IMG/VR virus record: IMGVR_UViG_3300043256_000125
Coordinates: 1-64,000 of that record
DNA length: 64,000 bases
Strand: one strand, 5' to 3'
Source of the DNA: a virus
Position 1 is the stretch's first letter. Every line of letters starts with the position of its first letter. The notes beneath the pieces are model-generated. The model made no database searches and was not told where the DNA came from. It saw nothing but the letters and a program-made list of their open reading frames with translations. Shown in pieces: positions 11,212-35,522 of this stretch. A program made the translations under genes and the position numbers.

Positions 11212-12006
11212 TCAGGTGTCGGGGGGTGCGGCCGATGTTAAATAACCCTGCCGGGGCCTTGCGGCAAGTCCGGCAGGGAGGAAGTCTGCTTTCGGACGAT
11301 GATCGGCCGCTGCGGCCGCGATCGCCGCTACACCCGGGGCTATCGTCTCGCCGGGGCGGGTAGCCGAAATCAGGCCCACCAGCTCGTTTTTCTCATTGAG
11401 GATCGGCCCGCCGGAATCTCCCTGCTGCGAACTGACCCGTACGGCAAACCAACCGTTGCGATCCCACCGCCCCAATAGGCCGCCGTGCCACCGGAAGCGG
11501 CCACCATGAGGATAGCCGCCCAACAACAGCCGGGCACCAACCACCGGCAGCCGGGCCGCGAAGCGGACCACCCGGCACAACGGCCGACGGATATGGAGTA
11601 TGGCGAAGTCGCGGGGCCGGTCGATGTGGACCACAAGCGCGTTGTACGTCTTGCCGTCGGCGCAGGCCACCTTGACGGCCCCCACGCCCTCGGTAAACAG
11701 GTGTGCGGTCGTCACCACCTGCGCTAGATCACGGCTCTCGGACTTCCATATCAGGACGCCGCTGCACGGCATCGTCTTGTTGCCCAAATGATGGACGACT
11801 CTCGGGCAACTCGGGTAGACCGTCAGTGGAACCGTGGCACCGAAGCACTGCCCGGCCCACAGAATCACCAGCAAGCACACCAGGCAGTACGCGACAAGTG
11901 CCGCGCACCATTGCGCCCTGCGTCGCTTAGCGGCATGGAGAGCTTCGCGCATTTGCTCCAGCCTGGCGGTACGTCGGATGTGCTGTCGCATTTCGTGGTG
12001 ATCCAT
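11212..12006 (-). CDS. Membrane-anchored trypsin-like (S1) serine protease
   Basis: 264 aa. The ATG at 12006 overlaps the upstream TAA (TAATG); an open stretch before it is non-coding. A basic N-terminus and one hydrophobic span (about 33-56) are followed by a chymotrypsin-fold domain with the full triad in order: H102 in VVTTAHLF, D133 in RPRDFAILHI and S198 in QGDSGGP. N-in topology would place the protease in the periplasm. Known: S1/HtrA-type proteases are common in bacteria but rare in phages. Target unknown; envelope proteins or incoming phage are possible. Confidence 0.85.
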   Translation of the reverse strand: MDHHEMRQHIRRTARLEQMREALHAAKRRRAQWCAALVAYCLVCLLVILWAGQCFGATVPLTVYPSCPRVVHHLGNKTMPCSGVLIWKSESRDLAQVVTTAHLFTEGVGAVKVACADGKTYNALVVHIDRPRDFAILHIRRPLCRVVRFAARLPVVGARLLLGGYPHGGRFRWHGGLLGRWDRNGWFAVRVSSQQGDSGGPILNEKNELVGLISATRPGETIAPGVAAIAAAAADHRPKADFLPAGLAARPRQGYLTSAAPPDT

Positions 12007-12443
12007 TATCCCGCCCCCCAGTACTGCCCGACCAACACCGCACCCAACACCGCACCCAACAACAGTCCGACAAGCACCGCTACCAAGACGCCGGGCCAGT
12101 ATCGACGGAGGCGTTGTTTCGCTTGCCGTACCGCCGCAAGGGCCTCTTCTCGCTGCAATTGTGCTTTGATCTTTTCGAGGGACGCAATAGACCGCAGAAA
12201 ACTCGGGCACTCTGGGTTTTTTGCGAGCCACCGCCGCTCAAAGGCCAGCATTACGTCGGTTTTTCTCAGTGACTCCTGGAGTCTATCGATTTCGTCTTGC
12301 AAAGTGGTCCTGTCTCCGCGGTCAAATGCGGCCAAGCACTCCGCCTCCATCTCGGGATCAGGGAACGGCCGCAGTGGGTCCAGTTTGATTTCAAGGTCGC
12401 CATCGTTCCAGTGCGGTTGGTCTTTCATTTGTTGGGTCATCAT
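12006..12443 (-). CDS. Tail-anchored membrane protein
   Basis: 145 aa: charged helical N-terminus with coiled-coil stretches (TTLQDEIDRLQESLRKTDVM) and one C-terminal membrane span (about 116-140, GVLVAVLVGLLLGAVLGAVL). GGAGG lies six bases before the ATG. Coupled to the downstream protease by TAATG, which suggests the two membrane proteins work together. Confidence 0.75.
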   Translation of the reverse strand: MMTQQMKDQPHWNDGDLEIKLDPLRPFPDPEMEAECLAAFDRGDRTTLQDEIDRLQESLRKTDVMLAFERRWLAKNPECPSFLRSIASLEKIKAQLQREEALAAVRQAKQRLRRYWPGVLVAVLVGLLLGAVLGAVLVGQYWGAG

Positions 12444-15948: not shown

Positions 15949-16998
15949 TTACGCTCCTTTCGGCCACTCGCGGTGACACAGATCCTCGGGCCACTCGGCC
16001 GGGTCTTTTGATACGCATGGCTTCATACGGGATTCGTGGAACCGACACGAACGACAGGCGCCCTCCCACCCCACCGCCCCTACAGGTCTTCCAGCAACAT
16101 GGACGAGGCCGCATCTGCATCGCAGGGCATTGAGTTGCTTGACAAATACCGGCACGCCTGCCTCGCGGCATTGTTGCACCACTGAGCGAACCCACTCGGT
16201 TTCCATCGGTCGAGCGCCGGGGCCCGATTCGCAGCCTACGATCACCCAGTTGATCGGCGACGGTGTCGGCTCGTCAGTTGCCCCCCACCCGCCGGTTGGC
16301 CTTAGTGCGCGATGCCTCCCCTGGTGTCCTGCACGCATCGTGCATCGGTTTCCGTCGCAACGGGAGGGACATCGGTCTATGCTTAGTATCCCCGGCAAGT
16401 CCCCCGGCAAGTCCCCCAGCAACGGCTCCAGACTCAAGAACCGCACGGGCGCCGGGCAGCGCATCAGGTGCCCGATCCGGTGGACCTCGTCTTGGTTCTC
16501 GACGGAGGTGCCGAGTTGGACGTTGGGCAGGGGGAATGGGCATAGGCCGATGCCCTCAAATCGCAATGTGTACCCGACCGACCTCGCGGCAGCTTCCCAA
16601 TGTTCGATTGAACGAGCGCGACTACCCATATACTCCGCCATCCGCTCCGGCCTCTTCGTCAACACCTGAAACGTATGCTGCGGACACAAGGCCATCACCG
16701 CAAACACTTTGTCAATGAACCCCGCTGACACGTCCTTGTGAAACAGATCCCCCATGAACTGCACGCCGATTCTGGCCGACTTTCGCCGGCGCAACGGAGC
16801 TTCCAGCTCATCGGCGAGCAGGATGGGCATGCCGCCCGCTTTCGCTGCCCGAACATCAGGGGCCAACCGCTTATTCCCCGCGTGACGTTTGGCCATCCTG
16901 ATGTGCCAGCAATGGTCGCACCCGTCGGAAACGGGTGTACACCGCATGGCGATCGGATTCCATGTGTGGGTCAGGTACTCTATGCCTGTCTTGTTCAT
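15949..16998 (-). CDS. Phage Gp37/Gp68-type (DUF5131) protein
   Basis: 349 aa. Opens TGIEYLTHTWNPIAMRC followed by TPVSDGCDHCW, the Cys-rich signature of the DUF5131 family (three close Cys, radical-SAM-like arrangement), with later family motifs VQFMGDLFHKDV, QVLTKRPERM, LGTSVENQDE and SLEPLLGDL. An extra Cys/His block at about 205-240 and another at the C-terminus (CRCGLVHVAG) enlarge it. The biochemical role of the family is not established. Contains a DNA repeat coding LPGDLPG. Confidence 0.85.
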   Translation of the reverse strand: MNKTGIEYLTHTWNPIAMRCTPVSDGCDHCWHIRMAKRHAGNKRLAPDVRAAKAGGMPILLADELEAPLRRRKSARIGVQFMGDLFHKDVSAGFIDKVFAVMALCPQHTFQVLTKRPERMAEYMGSRARSIEHWEAAARSVGYTLRFEGIGLCPFPLPNVQLGTSVENQDEVHRIGHLMRCPAPVRFLSLEPLLGDLPGDLPGILSIDRCPSRCDGNRCTMRAGHQGRHRALRPTGGWGATDEPTPSPINWVIVGCESGPGARPMETEWVRSVVQQCREAGVPVFVKQLNALRCRCGLVHVAGRPVGAVGWEGACRSCRFHESRMKPCVSKDPAEWPEDLCHREWPKGA

Positions 16999-28033: not shown

Positions 28034-29491
28034 TTAGTAAGCGGCCTGGGCAATTCGTTCCATGAACAGCTTGTAGATGTCGTCAAATGAACCTTCGACG
28101 CCAAACAACAATTGCTGCTTTCCGTCACTTCTCGCAAGCGCTTCCGCGACGTGGGCCGCGGCTACCTGCGCCAACGGCACACTTTCGCCTTTCTCTCGCC
28201 ACCTCGCCAACAAGGCATTGTCCGCGTTGTAGTAGAGCTTGTTGCCGTTCTTCTCGTACCGCGCCAAGTAACCGTCTTCGCCGAGTTCGGCCCATTCCGT
28301 GAGTAGCGCATCAGGAGTGTGAGACTTCTTGCGGCCCTTCCGCTTGCGCCCCGTATCGCGTGGCTTGATGCCTTCACTATCGGGTTCGCGACCATCGTGT
28401 TCGCGGCGATCTTCGTTGCCGCCTCTCGTCGGATTATCACCGCCCCCTTTTCCTTTGGGCCGCGACAACATCCGGCTAATGGTATCGTTCAACTTGGCGT
28501 CGTGTTCGTTGCTGCATAGGGCGTGCGACTCTTGGAGTTGTGGTTCAAACAATTCCGCGCATTGCTCATAGAGATCATCCATGAACTCCTTTTCCACGGA
28601 CCGCTTCAGCAAGTCCATACTGTCTTGTCCGGCGGTTTGCGGAATCCGAAGCTGCGCGTAGAATCGCCCCACGTTGTAATCGCCGCAAGGCTCACTGGTT
28701 GTATCAAACAGCTTTCCGCCGTAGATAAGTCGGCATCCCATGTCGGCAGTGGGCTTCAGGGTAACACCCCACTCTACGGAAAACGTATGGCCGTCAATAT
28801 CCAGCGTGCTTGAGTGCAGCACTTCAACTTCAGGCCGACTCTCTGGCTTGACCTTGTGTCGCTTGCCGTTAAGCACAACTGTTATTTCAAGAGCGCAACA
28901 TTCAAGCACGCTGGCGTAACACCTCGCAAGGTGTGCGATGATCCGATCCAAATCCTTTTGCCCCGGCCCCTTCTTCTTGTAGTTTGTAAACCCAATCGTT
29001 GTTCCGCCAGCCCCCGCCAGCCCGGCCTCTGCCCGCCCTTCAGGCGTTGCCGCATACTGTTCACCGTGTCCGGTAGTGTCCTTGTCAATCCATCGTTGAA
29101 CGAAGCGTATTACGTTATCATCCGATTCGGTAAACACTTGCATCCGCCCCCTAAGATGCGCCTCGCAAGCAAACAGGCCAGTTCCGAAAGTCGAGTTGCC
29201 GTAGTTGTCGAGGTTGCCGCCACTTAGTCCCGGCCGAAGAAATACCTCGGGCTGCGTGTTGCCCACGCCATTGTCGCCGCACTTAAATGACTTCTTTCCA
29301 CGTGTGGACCACTCCAAGAACACCTCGCTCGGCACTTTGGGTTTCTTGTTGGCCAGGGCGTTGTCGACTAATTCTGTAGCGATATTCCGCCATGGTAGAT
29401 TCCGCATAGCAGCGCGCATAATCATGGTGGTCCAACCCGACACAGGGTCGCCAGAAATCTCATACGCGGATTCCGCAACTGTTGTTGCCAT
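28034..29491 (-). CDS. GHKL-type ATPase
   Basis: 485 aa. Bergerat fold motifs: N box E40-x3-N44 in NIATELVDNALANK, G1 box D73-NGVG, G2 box around 98-105 (GNSTFGTG). Known members: gyrase, Hsp90, MutL, histidine kinases and MORC proteins. The C-terminal half (350-485) has a basic hinge (GRKRKGRKKSHT) and a helical end with no known domain. A phage GHKL protein without kinase or toprim parts is unusual; role unknown. Confidence 0.75.
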   Translation of the reverse strand: MATTVAESAYEISGDPVSGWTTMIMRAAMRNLPWRNIATELVDNALANKKPKVPSEVFLEWSTRGKKSFKCGDNGVGNTQPEVFLRPGLSGGNLDNYGNSTFGTGLFACEAHLRGRMQVFTESDDNVIRFVQRWIDKDTTGHGEQYAATPEGRAEAGLAGAGGTTIGFTNYKKKGPGQKDLDRIIAHLARCYASVLECCALEITVVLNGKRHKVKPESRPEVEVLHSSTLDIDGHTFSVEWGVTLKPTADMGCRLIYGGKLFDTTSEPCGDYNVGRFYAQLRIPQTAGQDSMDLLKRSVEKEFMDDLYEQCAELFEPQLQESHALCSNEHDAKLNDTISRMLSRPKGKGGGDNPTRGGNEDRREHDGREPDSEGIKPRDTGRKRKGRKKSHTPDALLTEWAELGEDGYLARYEKNGNKLYYNADNALLARWREKGESVPLAQVAAAHVAEALARSDGKQQLLFGVEGSFDDIYKLFMERIAQAAY

Positions 29492-30589: not shown

Positions 30590-31144
30590 TTAGAAGGGGA
30601 TGTCGCCGCCGACAGCCGTTTCGGCTTCCGCGTCGGCCGTTGCTTTGGGGCTGTCGATCGGAGGCGGATCGGGTGCGGGTTGCTTTGGCTTGGCTTGTGT
30701 ACGTGCCCGCAGCTCTTTGCCGAATAGGCTATCGAGTTTACTGGTCGCCTCAGCGTCCATCCGGTTGCCGCCACCACGACTAATATCCCACCGCTCTTTC
30801 AGTTCGTCGTTGTAAGATTCGTGCTTGCAATACATCTTGATAGAATTGCCGACAAGGTCTTGGCTGTTGGGATTGGCTCGATCGAACTCGCTCCAAGCCA
30901 CACCCGTAAAGCCTATCGCCTCCAGCTTGTCCAAGACAAACTCTACAGTTGAGGTCGTAACCGCCTGGTACATCGTCCGTTCGTGTTGCCGCTCATCGGC
31001 ATCGTACTGTTTGGGATCGGCTGCATTGACTCGACCCAACACCTTGACCTTGACGAATATCTGGGGAGTGCCAGTTTTCGCAGGTGACAGTCCATGGTCG
31101 ACAATCTCACACCAATACTCGCCTGGTTCGTAATACGTTCCCAT
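30590..31144 (-). CDS. SSB-like single-stranded DNA-binding protein
   Basis: 184 aa. OB-fold-like core with VKVKVLGRVNAADPKQYDAD, a Pro/Lys-rich linker from about 145 and an acidic tail ending GGDIPF, the conserved C-terminus of bacterial SSBs (DIPF). The unconventional core fits DUF669-type phage SSBs. Belongs with the adjoining ATPase and nuclease in a recombination set. Confidence 0.7.
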   Translation of the reverse strand: MGTYYEPGEYWCEIVDHGLSPAKTGTPQIFVKVKVLGRVNAADPKQYDADERQHERTMYQAVTTSTVEFVLDKLEAIGFTGVAWSEFDRANPNSQDLVGNSIKMYCKHESYNDELKERWDISRGGGNRMDAEATSKLDSLFGKELRARTQAKPKQPAPDPPPIDSPKATADAEAETAVGGDIPF

Positions 31145-31146
31145 GG

Positions 31147-31989
31147 TTACTTCCCTCCATTTCTGGCGGTCTTCATTGCCGCCACAAAGTTATTGTAGGC
31201 TTCTTGAGAAGAATCACCGGCGGCAATCTCCGGCGGCAATCCATGGCGGTTCTTGGCATCCCAGGCGGCAGTTCGCTCCATGTAAAGCCGCCGTACCGTG
31301 CCGCCTTTGGCTTTGGTTTTGCGGGTAGTGTCATTGTCCTGCAAAACAGTTTCGTAGTTGTAAAACAACACGATATCGGCCCACGCCTTGGAAACTTCCC
31401 AGGTTTCTTTTTCCATAGCCGGAACGTATCGATCGTAATCAGGCCCCTCGGGATTCTTGAAGTTGCGGACTGCCGTATGGCACAGGCACACAATCGCCAT
31501 GCGTCGTTCTTCGCGAAGTCGCTCCATGGCTTTCAGGAATAACCGCCATTCGGTCATGGCGGATACGGGCCCCTGACGGTAAGCCATAAATCCCTTGGCC
31601 CCCCAATCGTTCTTGTAGAGAGTGCGACAGACGTGCGCAAAGCAGAGCTTCTCGAAGCCGTCCATGACGTCGAGAATAAGAGTCTTGTGTTCATGCTCGC
31701 CCGTTCTCAGTTCTTCCACTAAGTCTAGTGCGTCGAGCCATTCATCAATCCGTGGAAGCAAAGTAATATCACGGATTTGACCAGCATCCAAAAGCGTTTC
31801 CATTCCAGTTTCCGTTGGCAACACAACTGGGTTGGGGGCGTGGGAAAACATCGAAGATTTGCCGATGCCTTCGACGCCCTGCAAGATCACAATACTCGGC
31901 AGATTGCGTCCCGTGGTCGTGGCATCAGAAAGGGAAAGCTTCCGTCGGTTGCTCGTGGCTGGTGCTGCGGTCGGTGCTACGGTTGCCAT
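31147..31989 (-). CDS. Sak4-like RecA-type recombination ATPase
   Basis: 280 aa. Walker A GVEGIGKS at 38-45, Walker B TLILDVMDG near 110, and a switch region CLCHTAVRNF near 170. Matches the small RecA-core ATPases (Sak4/AAA_24) used in phage single-strand annealing. Sits between an SSB-like gene and a RecB-type nuclease, the usual recombination trio. Confidence 0.8.
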   Translation of the reverse strand: MATVAPTAAPATSNRRKLSLSDATTTGRNLPSIVILQGVEGIGKSSMFSHAPNPVVLPTETGMETLLDAGQIRDITLLPRIDEWLDALDLVEELRTGEHEHKTLILDVMDGFEKLCFAHVCRTLYKNDWGAKGFMAYRQGPVSAMTEWRLFLKAMERLREERRMAIVCLCHTAVRNFKNPEGPDYDRYVPAMEKETWEVSKAWADIVLFYNYETVLQDNDTTRKTKAKGGTVRRLYMERTAAWDAKNRHGLPPEIAAGDSSQEAYNNFVAAMKTARNGGK

Positions 31990-33091
31990 AGTCGTTCTCC
32001 TCTTGGGGTTGAGTTGGGGTTAGAAAATGGGACCACCATGCCTCGAGTGCTTTGTGCATTAGGGTCCCAAACACGAGCGCGTCGGATTCTTTGTGGTCGA
32101 CACGCTCGATTCCGAGTTCGTAACGGTAGTAGTGCTTCCGCCGGCAAGTCTGAAAGCACCGCAGGCGGGAATTGGTTAGGACATTGCGACCGTCGCCGTT
32201 GAGTGTGGATAGCTCCTCGTGGACGTTGGCCCGGCGTATCCAGTTGTTGCTGTCTGGGCTGTCGTAACCAGAGCAAATCCCCAGATACCCACACGCGCCA
32301 AAGTTCAGGCAGGCACCGCTGCTGCGCAGATGCCGACCGGTGCGACGTGCAATCAGTATGTCCTGAGCGAGTTCCCATAACTCTTTAGCGTATAGTTCCA
32401 TTTCATGGTCAAGTTTGAAGATTTTCTGCCGCTGAAAATATCGTTCTGGTTGGTCGAGGCACTCTTGCGTCAAGCGGATTTCGAACAGTTCGCCGTTCTC
32501 TCGATACTTGATCTGCGTGCCTTTGGGCAATCCCGCATCAGCCGTGCAGGTATCTGCGATATTTACTTGCGTATCGGAACTCACATTCATGCCGAAATAG
32601 GTTCCAAGTGACGTAATCATTGTTTTGTCTGCTTTGCTAAGCAGCTTTGGTGCGATACCCGGCTTACGAATCATGTCCCAAACAGCACCAGCAGCCTGCT
32701 GGCCAGAAAGAAGCTCTGACAGCAGATAGCAATTAACCTGCCCCTCACAAACCAATTGTTTTCGGAAATCTGAATTGACTGCGATGTCGTACGACGTAGT
32801 CTTGTGGTCGAACACCCACCGCCGGTCTTGTTCATCAATACCGAGCACATCTTTCTTGCCGGCAACCGTAAACGTCCGACTTGTGCTGGTTCGCTTGGCG
32901 GCTTGTAGGTTGTAGATTGAATGGCGAAATTCTTGCTCGACCGCTTCGGCTCGCCACGTATTATCAGCGGCGTATCGAGCATCGTAACCGCGCATCAAAC
33001 CGCGTGCGGTGGCTCGGTGTTTGTCATCGGGACTCGTCGCTTTGTCGATTGACGCCAGAGCGCTGTCTAGTGGTTTGCTTTGGCGAATCAC
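31925..33091 (-). CDS. PD-(D/E)XK nuclease in circularly permuted order
   Basis: 388 aa. GTG at 33091 with AAGGAG nine bases upstream, so the start is firm. Residues 80-125 hold the catalytic strand pair (G-K-K-D81, then D95-H-K97) and GQVNCY; C261, C267 and C273 form the C-terminal Cys set of RecB/Cas4-like enzymes. After that comes what is normally the N-terminus: TNSRLRCFQTCRRKHYYRYE and GTLMHKALEAWW (H346). Segment order is thus C-half then N-half. Likely still a DNA exonuclease or resection enzyme. Confidence 0.8.
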   Translation of the reverse strand: MIRQSKPLDSALASIDKATSPDDKHRATARGLMRGYDARYAADNTWRAEAVEQEFRHSIYNLQAAKRTSTSRTFTVAGKKDVLGIDEQDRRWVFDHKTTSYDIAVNSDFRKQLVCEGQVNCYLLSELLSGQQAAGAVWDMIRKPGIAPKLLSKADKTMITSLGTYFGMNVSSDTQVNIADTCTADAGLPKGTQIKYRENGELFEIRLTQECLDQPERYFQRQKIFKLDHEMELYAKELWELAQDILIARRTGRHLRSSGACLNFGACGYLGICSGYDSPDSNNWIRRANVHEELSTLNGDGRNVLTNSRLRCFQTCRRKHYYRYELGIERVDHKESDALVFGTLMHKALEAWWSHFLTPTQPQEENDYGNRSTDRSTSHEQPTEAFPF

Positions 33092-33339
33092 TGAGATTCT
33101 CCTTCTGTCATCACGCGCAATTCAGGAGCTTGATCGAATGGGATGGTGGCGGGAGGTGATACGGGTTTCTTGAATCGTTCGATCATGTCCAGGACCTCAG
33201 TCAGCTCGGCATCTACCGCATCGAGGTCGCTGTCGTGAACGCTCTTTGCGTTGTCGTCGGGATCCTCGAACTCGATGCGCGCAACCTCCCCCAGCAACCT
33301 TTGCGCGTTGGCGATTCGGTCGGCGATTTCTTCTAGCAT
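33088..33339 (-). CDS. Hypothetical helical acidic protein, 83 aa
   Basis: MLEEIADRIANAQRLLGEVA opening, acidic middle (DNAKSVHDSDLDAVDAELTE). Stop overlaps the nuclease start. No family. Confidence 0.65.
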   Translation of the reverse strand: MLEEIADRIANAQRLLGEVARIEFEDPDDNAKSVHDSDLDAVDAELTEVLDMIERFKKPVSPPATIPFDQAPELRVMTEGESQ

Positions 33340-34815: not shown

Positions 34816-35337
34816 TTAGTCGGTGGCGGGTTCGGGTTCAGACTCGTCGACTACCGGCTTGCCGTGACACTGGATCGCGTAGGTGGAGTGGACTATTTCG
34901 CCCGTTTTGACCCGATTGCAGACCGCGCCGTCTACCGCACGCGGACTCATCGTCAGGTCGATTGCGCCATTGCGATCCTCAATGTTGTAGCGGACTTCGA
35001 GTTCCCCAAATTTGGTCTGCTGCGGCTCCTCGTACCCATTGGCCCGCTTGTACCCGGCACGGGCAAATAGATGCAGTAGGGCGGGCAAGACGGCAAAGTC
35101 CTGTAGGTAAGCGACGACTGTGACGCGGTCATACAGCATGCCGTAGTGGACGGACATTAAGTCGCCGGTGTTAGCAGCGAGATATTGATTCTTGATCCGC
35201 ACGGCCGCCTTTAGGTCGTCCGCGTACTTGGCGATACCGTCAAACTCACGCTGTACGTCACCCTTGGCCAGGTCCGTCTTCTCGTTAATCTCGGCCTCAA
35301 TTGCCGCCTCATCGACGGCTACGGTTTCCGCGATCAT
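34816..35337 (-). CDS. Hypothetical protein, 173 aa
   Basis: Helical start (VDEAAIEAEINEKTDLAKGD), then LMSVHYGMLYDRVTVVAYLQ and an end rich in beta strands. Coupled to the CsrA gene by TGATG. No family recognised. Confidence 0.65.
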   Translation of the reverse strand: MIAETVAVDEAAIEAEINEKTDLAKGDVQREFDGIAKYADDLKAAVRIKNQYLAANTGDLMSVHYGMLYDRVTVVAYLQDFAVLPALLHLFARAGYKRANGYEEPQQTKFGELEVRYNIEDRNGAIDLTMSPRAVDGAVCNRVKTGEIVHSTYAIQCHGKPVVDESEPEPATD

Positions 35338-35522
35338 CAGTCTTCTCCTGGTTGGTTTCTGTGAATAGCATCAAACACTTCTTTCCGGTGGACCGGAATG
35401 TCCCCGGGCGCATCGATGGCCAAGCGCACCTTGTCCCCGTGAATCTCCGCGACCATAATCGTGATGCTATCGCCGATCATGATTTTCTGTTCCACTTTCC
35501 GTGACAATACGAGATACGCCAT
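35337..35522 (-). CDS. csrA: CsrA-type RNA-binding regulator
   Basis: 61 aa, the family's usual length. MAYLVLSRKVEQKIMIGDSI, then VAEIHGDKVRLAIDAPGDIP and VHRKEVFDAI, the complete CsrA pattern with the RNA-contacting LSRK and VHRxE residues. Known: CsrA binds GGA-containing leaders and controls translation and stability of host mRNAs. A phage copy may reprogram host metabolism or regulate its own messages, many of which have GGA in their ribosome sites. Confidence 0.92.
   Translation of the reverse strand: MAYLVLSRKVEQKIMIGDSITIMVAEIHGDKVRLAIDAPGDIPVHRKEVFDAIHRNQPGED

Follow-up and report, generated by a model that had tools for sequence, protein, structure and literature searches.

The locus examined here raises the question of whether a phage can carry a PD-(D/E)XK nuclease whose two parts have exchanged places along the chain and, if so, what such an enzyme does. 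A preliminary description, made from sequence alone, had read the motifs of such a nuclease in reversed order, in one continuous frame, between positions 31925 and 33091 of the window, the term used here for the whole 64,000-nucleotide stretch of DNA that was analysed (positions 1 to 64,000 of IMG/VR record IMGVR_UViG_3300043256_000125). Genes for portal, major head and tape-measure proteins mark the record as that of a tailed phage. The reading of the frame held, as did the strong start claimed for it (AAGGAG-GTG): the gene lies on the minus strand, running from a GTG at 33091 to a stop at 31925, and its GTG overlaps the TGA of an upstream 83-amino acid ORF (GTGA). Coordinates of the gene, its motifs and its neighbours, together with those of related loci, are collected in Table 1.

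Table 1. Positions of the permuted exonuclease gene, its motifs and neighbours in the window, and of nucleases opened elsewhere in the chain on other contigs
Feature	Position	Strand	Basis
CDS, circularly permuted PDDEXK_1 exonuclease, 388 aa, GTG start	31925..33091	-	ORF translation, Pfam, PHROG, AlphaFold
AAGGAG ribosome-binding site, 7 nt ahead of GTG	33099..33104	-	sequence reading
Residues 26-295, C-terminal in normal-order relatives (GKxD, DHK, Q/Y motif, three-Cys cluster)	32207..33016	-	profile matches
Residues 302-354, N-terminal in normal-order relatives (SRLRCFQTCRRKHYY...GTLMHKALEAWW)	32030..32188	-	profile matches
D81, predicted catalytic Asp (GKxD)	32849..32851	-	conserved column
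D95-H96-K97, predicted catalytic (D/E)xK	32801..32809	-	conserved columns
C261, first Cys of three-Cys cluster	32309..32311	-	conserved column
C267, three-Cys cluster	32291..32293	-	conserved column
C273, three-Cys cluster	32273..32275	-	conserved column
C316, lone fourth Cys, close to the N-terminus of normal-order relatives; follows the three-Cys cluster here	32144..32146	-	conserved column
H346 of GxxxH motif, on the module	32054..32056	-	conserved column
Sak4-like ATPase / ssDNA annealing protein (PF13479; PHROG_124, 1.7e-36)	31147..31989	-	profile matches
SSB-like protein, 41% to annotated SSB of Tunturi_2	30590..31144	-	sequence identity
CP2 proteins (n = 5, separate contigs)	L132:3989-4933, L133:3998-4969, L168:3492-4391, L248:2066-3649, L249:163-1236		
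CP3 (third opening, one helix later than CP1; near-identical pair, two metagenomes)	L236:332-1414, L237:2480-3562		

Order of the nuclease motifs

Read from its N-terminus, the window protein presents GKKD (D81), FDHK (D95-K97), Q118/Y122, the cysteines C261/C267/C273, SRLRCFQTC (C316) and finally GTLMH (H346). The module that is N-terminal in the PDDEXK_1 (RecB/AddB/Cas4-like) fold, with SRLRCFQTCRRKHYY and GTLMH, is thus found at the C-terminus, after the D..DxK and three-cysteine part (the core), and 43 residues separate C316 from the last cysteine of the cluster. The PF12705 (PDDEXK_1) profile matched the protein with 58 bits, above the Pfam gathering cut-off of 22 bits, in two stretches, the best of which places residues 306-362 on profile positions 3-53, and residues 26-273 matched positions 97-329 of PHROG_1218 ("exonuclease"). 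Since the start of the profile is matched by the end of the protein, what begins the family ends the window protein.

A profile of the permuted family was built from 41 relatives and searched against 10 normal-order phage exonucleases, an alignment to phage PDDEXK_1 relatives being one of the checks that the preliminary description had proposed. It returned two domains in swapped order in all 10, and when its two parts were exchanged, the un-permuted profile matched each of the 10 as a single domain with a higher score, as for Microbacterium phage Theresita (71.6 bits versus 29.2 and 28.1 with the permuted-family profile). An un-permuted query also aligned with normal-order phages straight through its artificial join. 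Swapped two-domain matches, coupled with a better single-domain fit after un-permuting, put the exchange of order far beyond chance.

Every segment is present once, without overlap or duplication, in one frame and in cyclically shifted order, as required of a true circular permutation, and the linear order of the PDDEXK_1 family (N-terminal Cys...GxxxH module, then core) is not met. Because of this swapped order, the protein is classed as a circularly permuted variant rather than a standard PDDEXK_1 member. A homologue in normal order elsewhere in the genome, which had been named as a refutation of the proposal, was not found in the record of 66,626 bases. Searches of the window protein with phmmer against PDB sequences gave only chance matches, such as Ras, and an NCBIfam search gave only a weak match to AddB.

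Conservation and predicted fold of the permuted form

The order of the window protein, referred to here as CP1, was found in 66 non-redundant proteins (copies at ≥95% identity removed), with identities to the window protein down to about 30%. These include the exonucleases of Tunturiibacter phages Tunturi_1 (XJP11549.1) and Tunturi_2 (XOB77130.1), which are isolated phages of Acidobacteriota with circular genomes (42-43% identity to the window protein), as well as proteins from many IMG/VR contigs and from two MAG contigs titled Planctomycetaceae and Deltaproteobacteria. When the short module alone was used for an order-neutral search, 23 of the 24 loci recovered were permuted. At one locus (L080:3310-4330), the permuted nuclease extends over two overlapping ORFs in different frames, which may reflect a frameshift, a sequencing error or a split gene.

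Conservation of the motif residues is shown by alignment. D81, K97, Q118, Y122, C261, C267, C273, C316, G342 and H346 are identical across all CP1, normal-order and CP2 rows (CP2 is described below) in which the position is occupied, apart from a single exception at H346. Position 95 holds Asp or Glu, and Glu-350 on the module helix is less strictly conserved. The GxxD, (D/E)xK, Q/Y and GxxxH residues of PDDEXK_1 are therefore all kept in the window protein. Purifying selection is likewise shown, with dN/dS between close pairs of 0.02-0.15 in the core and equally low values in the module where these could be computed.

The cysteines C261, C267, C273 and C316 are invariant in CP1 and match the four-cysteine pattern of the Fe-S staple nucleases, in which three are C-terminal and one is N-terminal in the unpermuted fold. 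In AddB and Cas4, the Fe-S "staple" is bound by four conserved cysteines, of which three lie towards the C-terminus and one lies close to the N-terminus (PMC3466216), and DUF3799 is a known zinc-binding relative. By inference, the four cysteines of the window protein would bind a 4Fe-4S (or zinc) staple; there are no metal-binding data, and the proximity of the cysteines in the model was not measured.

Structure prediction was another check that had been proposed. An AlphaFold2 model of the window protein as a single chain, made with 39 natural sequences, has a mean pLDDT of 88.8 and a pTM of 0.85, with values above 90 in the moved module and below 50 in the last 23 or so residues, which are predicted to be disordered. 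A Foldseek search against viral models aligned the model end to end and in the same order with A0A6J5NSY1, a PDDEXK protein of an uncultured Caudovirales phage (BFVD model; 370 columns, TMt 0.82, 19% identity), the order of which is inferred from the fold alignment, its sequence not having been read. Matches against the PDB were marginal (best E 1.2e-3; AdnA of AdnAB, an Argonaute-associated Cas4-like protein, Cas4 and MGME1), as would be expected of a sequential aligner faced with a permuted fold, and they offer no positive proof. On the strength of the profiles, the conservation in many phages and the confident single-chain prediction, the window protein is a circularly permuted PDDEXK_1 nuclease, and the central claim of the preliminary description held. 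Its remark that no phage protein with this order had been described held only in part: two isolate phages in GenBank, Tunturi_1 and Tunturi_2, carry the order, annotated simply "exonuclease" and without mention of it in their paper.

Further openings of the chain

A scan that used divergent relatives as queries yielded both close normal-order relatives and different arrangements. In the arrangement named CP2, seen in L132 and L133, the chain runs core (59-255), module, core (4-57) in one frame, beginning a few residues ahead of (V/I)EHKTTS and ending just past GK(C/F)DAIA, and its termini therefore lie in the hairpin between the two active-site strands (GKxD and EHK). The identities between CP2 proteins, where measured, are 46-57%. 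A third arrangement, CP3, belongs to a lineage that is otherwise in normal order. The chain is thus opened before the helix LxxAL in CP1, after it in CP3 and inside the active-site hairpin in CP2. The Pfam profile reflects these orders, with one stretch (5-246) in the normal-order protein L140 and a C-terminal best stretch in both CP1 (3-57) and CP2 (3-133). The AlphaFold model of the CP2 protein L133 (pLDDT 94.5, pTM 0.89) has secondary-structure elements that are a cyclic shift of those in the model of the window protein. Both permuted forms are predicted confidently, without superposition on a normal-order structure.

A nuclease tree was rooted on normal-order phages and sampled these more densely. 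The window protein sits in a large CP1 group, and CP2 and CP3 are nested among normal-order proteins, with support of 100/100 for the normal-order clade holding both and with CP3 inside a 100/98 node. A tree of the neighbouring Sak4-like proteins included three CP2 loci and grouped them in a single clade (98). The three different breakpoints imply at least three permutation events. One small CP1 group (L114/L123) falls among normal-order relatives once more normal-order rows are added; the p-AU of a single CP1 clade is then 0.0505, which is borderline, the remaining CP1 rows without this group are not rejected as one clade (p-AU 0.369), and in earlier trees with fewer normal-order rows, CP1 stays together. 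Given the borderline value, the number of CP1 origins is not claimed as fixed. The small group of CP1 order (L114, L117, L123 and L126) may be an independent permutation. A tree that placed L025 and L084 inside CP1 was discarded, as these rows are distant and poorly aligned, and was redone without both.

Circular permutations usually arise when a gene is duplicated in tandem and its outer parts are then lost. The preliminary description had suggested this route, and it fits, but it remains an inference, as no duplicated intermediate (module-core-module, or overlapping pieces of the core) was found among about 240 loci. In the route envisaged, a gene duplicated in tandem would have been trimmed so that the old C-terminus became fused to the old N-terminus by a short linker of about 10 residues, and the chain of CP1 would have been reopened between the GxxxH helix and the helices that follow. 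The cysteine staple would pin the old termini together; because the cluster ties the first segment to the last, their fusion may have been harmless and the chain could then be opened in surface loops. A bolder reading, towards which we lean by a small margin, is that the Fe-S staple makes the nuclease effectively circular and that phages have repeatedly moved its termini, with at least three reopening sites, perhaps more than one origin of CP1, and the same Sak4-SSB operon slot throughout. If this is true, circular permutation would have an evolutionary hot-spot here, for which the structural reason could be tested.

Genomic slot, role and relatives

The genomic slot of the gene is shown. Directly downstream of the exonuclease lie the Sak4-like gene, the start of which overlaps the exonuclease tail by 65 nt, and then the SSB-like gene, as expected of a Sak4-type recombination module. 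All permuted loci with enough flank have a Sak4-like ORF, nearly always followed by an SSB-like ORF. In other phages this slot is held by normal-order exonucleases, as a rule with a gene for a DNA polymerase or helicase in front and one for a Sak4, RecA-like or AAA protein behind, and the permuted gene is therefore their positional counterpart.

Several other features were observed at these loci. In L078/L079 (5193-5813), about 600 extra bases, possibly an inserted gene, separate the permuted nuclease from Sak4. A gene annotated as phosphoadenosine phosphosulfate reductase lies just upstream of the exonuclease in Tunturi_2 (L003:8094-8837) and is not annotated there in Tunturi_1. On the minus strand of the window, a 485-amino acid ORF near the recombination genes (28034-29491) has GHKL-ATPase-like motifs (ELVDNA, DNGVGN), with a Pfam HATPase_c match of only E 0.042. 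The same strand encodes a homologue of CsrA, of a translation-regulator family (35337-35522; PF02599, 8.5e-22), a DUF5131/PHROG_2045 protein (15949-16998; Pfam E 2.9e-65) and a trypsin-like serine peptidase domain (11212-12231; PF13365, 1e-14).

The reading that we consider likely, with a probability of roughly 0.82, is that the gene, permuted in place, gives the tailed phage a functional exonuclease of the RecB/AddB/Cas4 type (PDDEXK_1), and that this enzyme has a conventional end-resecting role feeding Sak4/SSB recombination. Its activity, metal, polarity and substrate are inferred, with no biochemistry. The exonuclease would resect DNA ends to single strands, which the SSB and Sak4 of the neighbouring genes may use for annealing and recombination in phage replication. 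The active site and substrate are probably those of the normal-order enzyme, with the chemistry unchanged, although this too is inferred.

Other explanations were weighed against this reading. As the window comes from a metagenomic record, its order could have been an assembly artefact or a sequencing chimera, and an assembly join inside the gene had been named in advance as a refutation. Such an origin is ruled out: two isolates whose genomes are circular share CP1 in one frame, and dozens of independent contigs carry it too, with identities as low as about 30%. It is improbable that the module instead packs onto a second chain and completes that chain's active site in a domain-swapped oligomer, an obligate dimer or ring. 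The old termini are joined by only about 10 residues, a short linker of the kind that can favour swapping, and the models cover single chains only; however, the single-chain model of the window protein is confident in both core and module (pLDDT >90, pTM 0.85), and the same holds for the single-chain model of the CP2 form, with its opening at another place. Least credible of the functional alternatives is a truncated nuclease fused to a module fragment that persists as a passive remnant. The module is short and the tail beyond it (the last 20-odd residues) is predicted to be disordered in the window protein, but C316, G342 and H346 of the module are invariant in CP1, purifying selection is as strong on the module as on the core, and no further module precedes the core at the N-terminus.

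A further possibility is that the protein is a Cas4-like nuclease of counter-defence, or one that interferes with CRISPR, rather than a recombination exonuclease. PF12705-type phage proteins do include a Cas4-like nuclease of a Campylobacter phage that affects spacer acquisition by the host (PMC5704561). We regard this as unlikely, since the neighbours at all loci with enough flank are Sak4 and, nearly always, an SSB-like gene, a PADLOC search gave no match and no Cas1 or Cas2 is annotated near the Tunturi_1 and Tunturi_2 genes; the association with cas1/cas2 and CRISPR expected of a Cas4 of CRISPR adaptation is not met. The recombination exonuclease, permuted in place, remains the preferred reading.

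The enzyme belongs to a known family, and its neighbours and likely function are familiar ones. The literature searched made no mention of the permutation, of how widely it occurs or of the different points of opening: no description of a permuted PD-(D/E)XK or Cas4-like nuclease was met there, but subscription papers were mostly not covered and an earlier mention elsewhere is not excluded. Circular permutation is uncommon among natural enzymes, and it is rarer still to find several independent openings alongside close unpermuted sisters (about 50% identity) and a fixed slot. Related phages have here reopened the same enzyme at three places, a natural test of how far a fold tolerates rewiring, and the comparison is a near-controlled experiment with one operon, one enzyme and four linear orders. 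It also offers a direct test of whether a metal staple is what licenses such permutation. There is also a practical consequence: the best Pfam stretch covers only about 55 residues of the permuted nucleases, profile searches split or truncate such proteins, and domain tools therefore under-annotate a widespread phage exonuclease.

Among known systems, the circularly permuted DNA methyltransferases of jumbo phages are a natural circular permutation of a phage enzyme (PMC7824862), although their fold is unrelated to that of the window nuclease. The "iron staple" nucleases AddB (nuclease domain), Cas4 and Dna2 share with the window protein, by motif, the four-cysteine pattern, the D/(D,E)xK site and GxxxH, but they are unpermuted, with the lone cysteine first rather than last, and are helicase-fused or CRISPR-associated. 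The exonucleases of Tunturi_1 and Tunturi_2 have the same permuted order and the same neighbours (Sak4 and SSB) as the window, differ from it in no architectural respect and belong to the same group. The PF12705 phage exonucleases annotated as "Cas4 family exonuclease" or "RecB-like exonuclease/helicase" (for instance those of Pseudomonas phage PMBT14, Gordonia phage Button and Microbacterium phage Theresita; PHROG_1218) have the same catalytic motifs, in most cases the same cysteines, and the same slot before a Sak4 or RecA-like gene, but these run from module to core, whereas the window protein runs from core to module.
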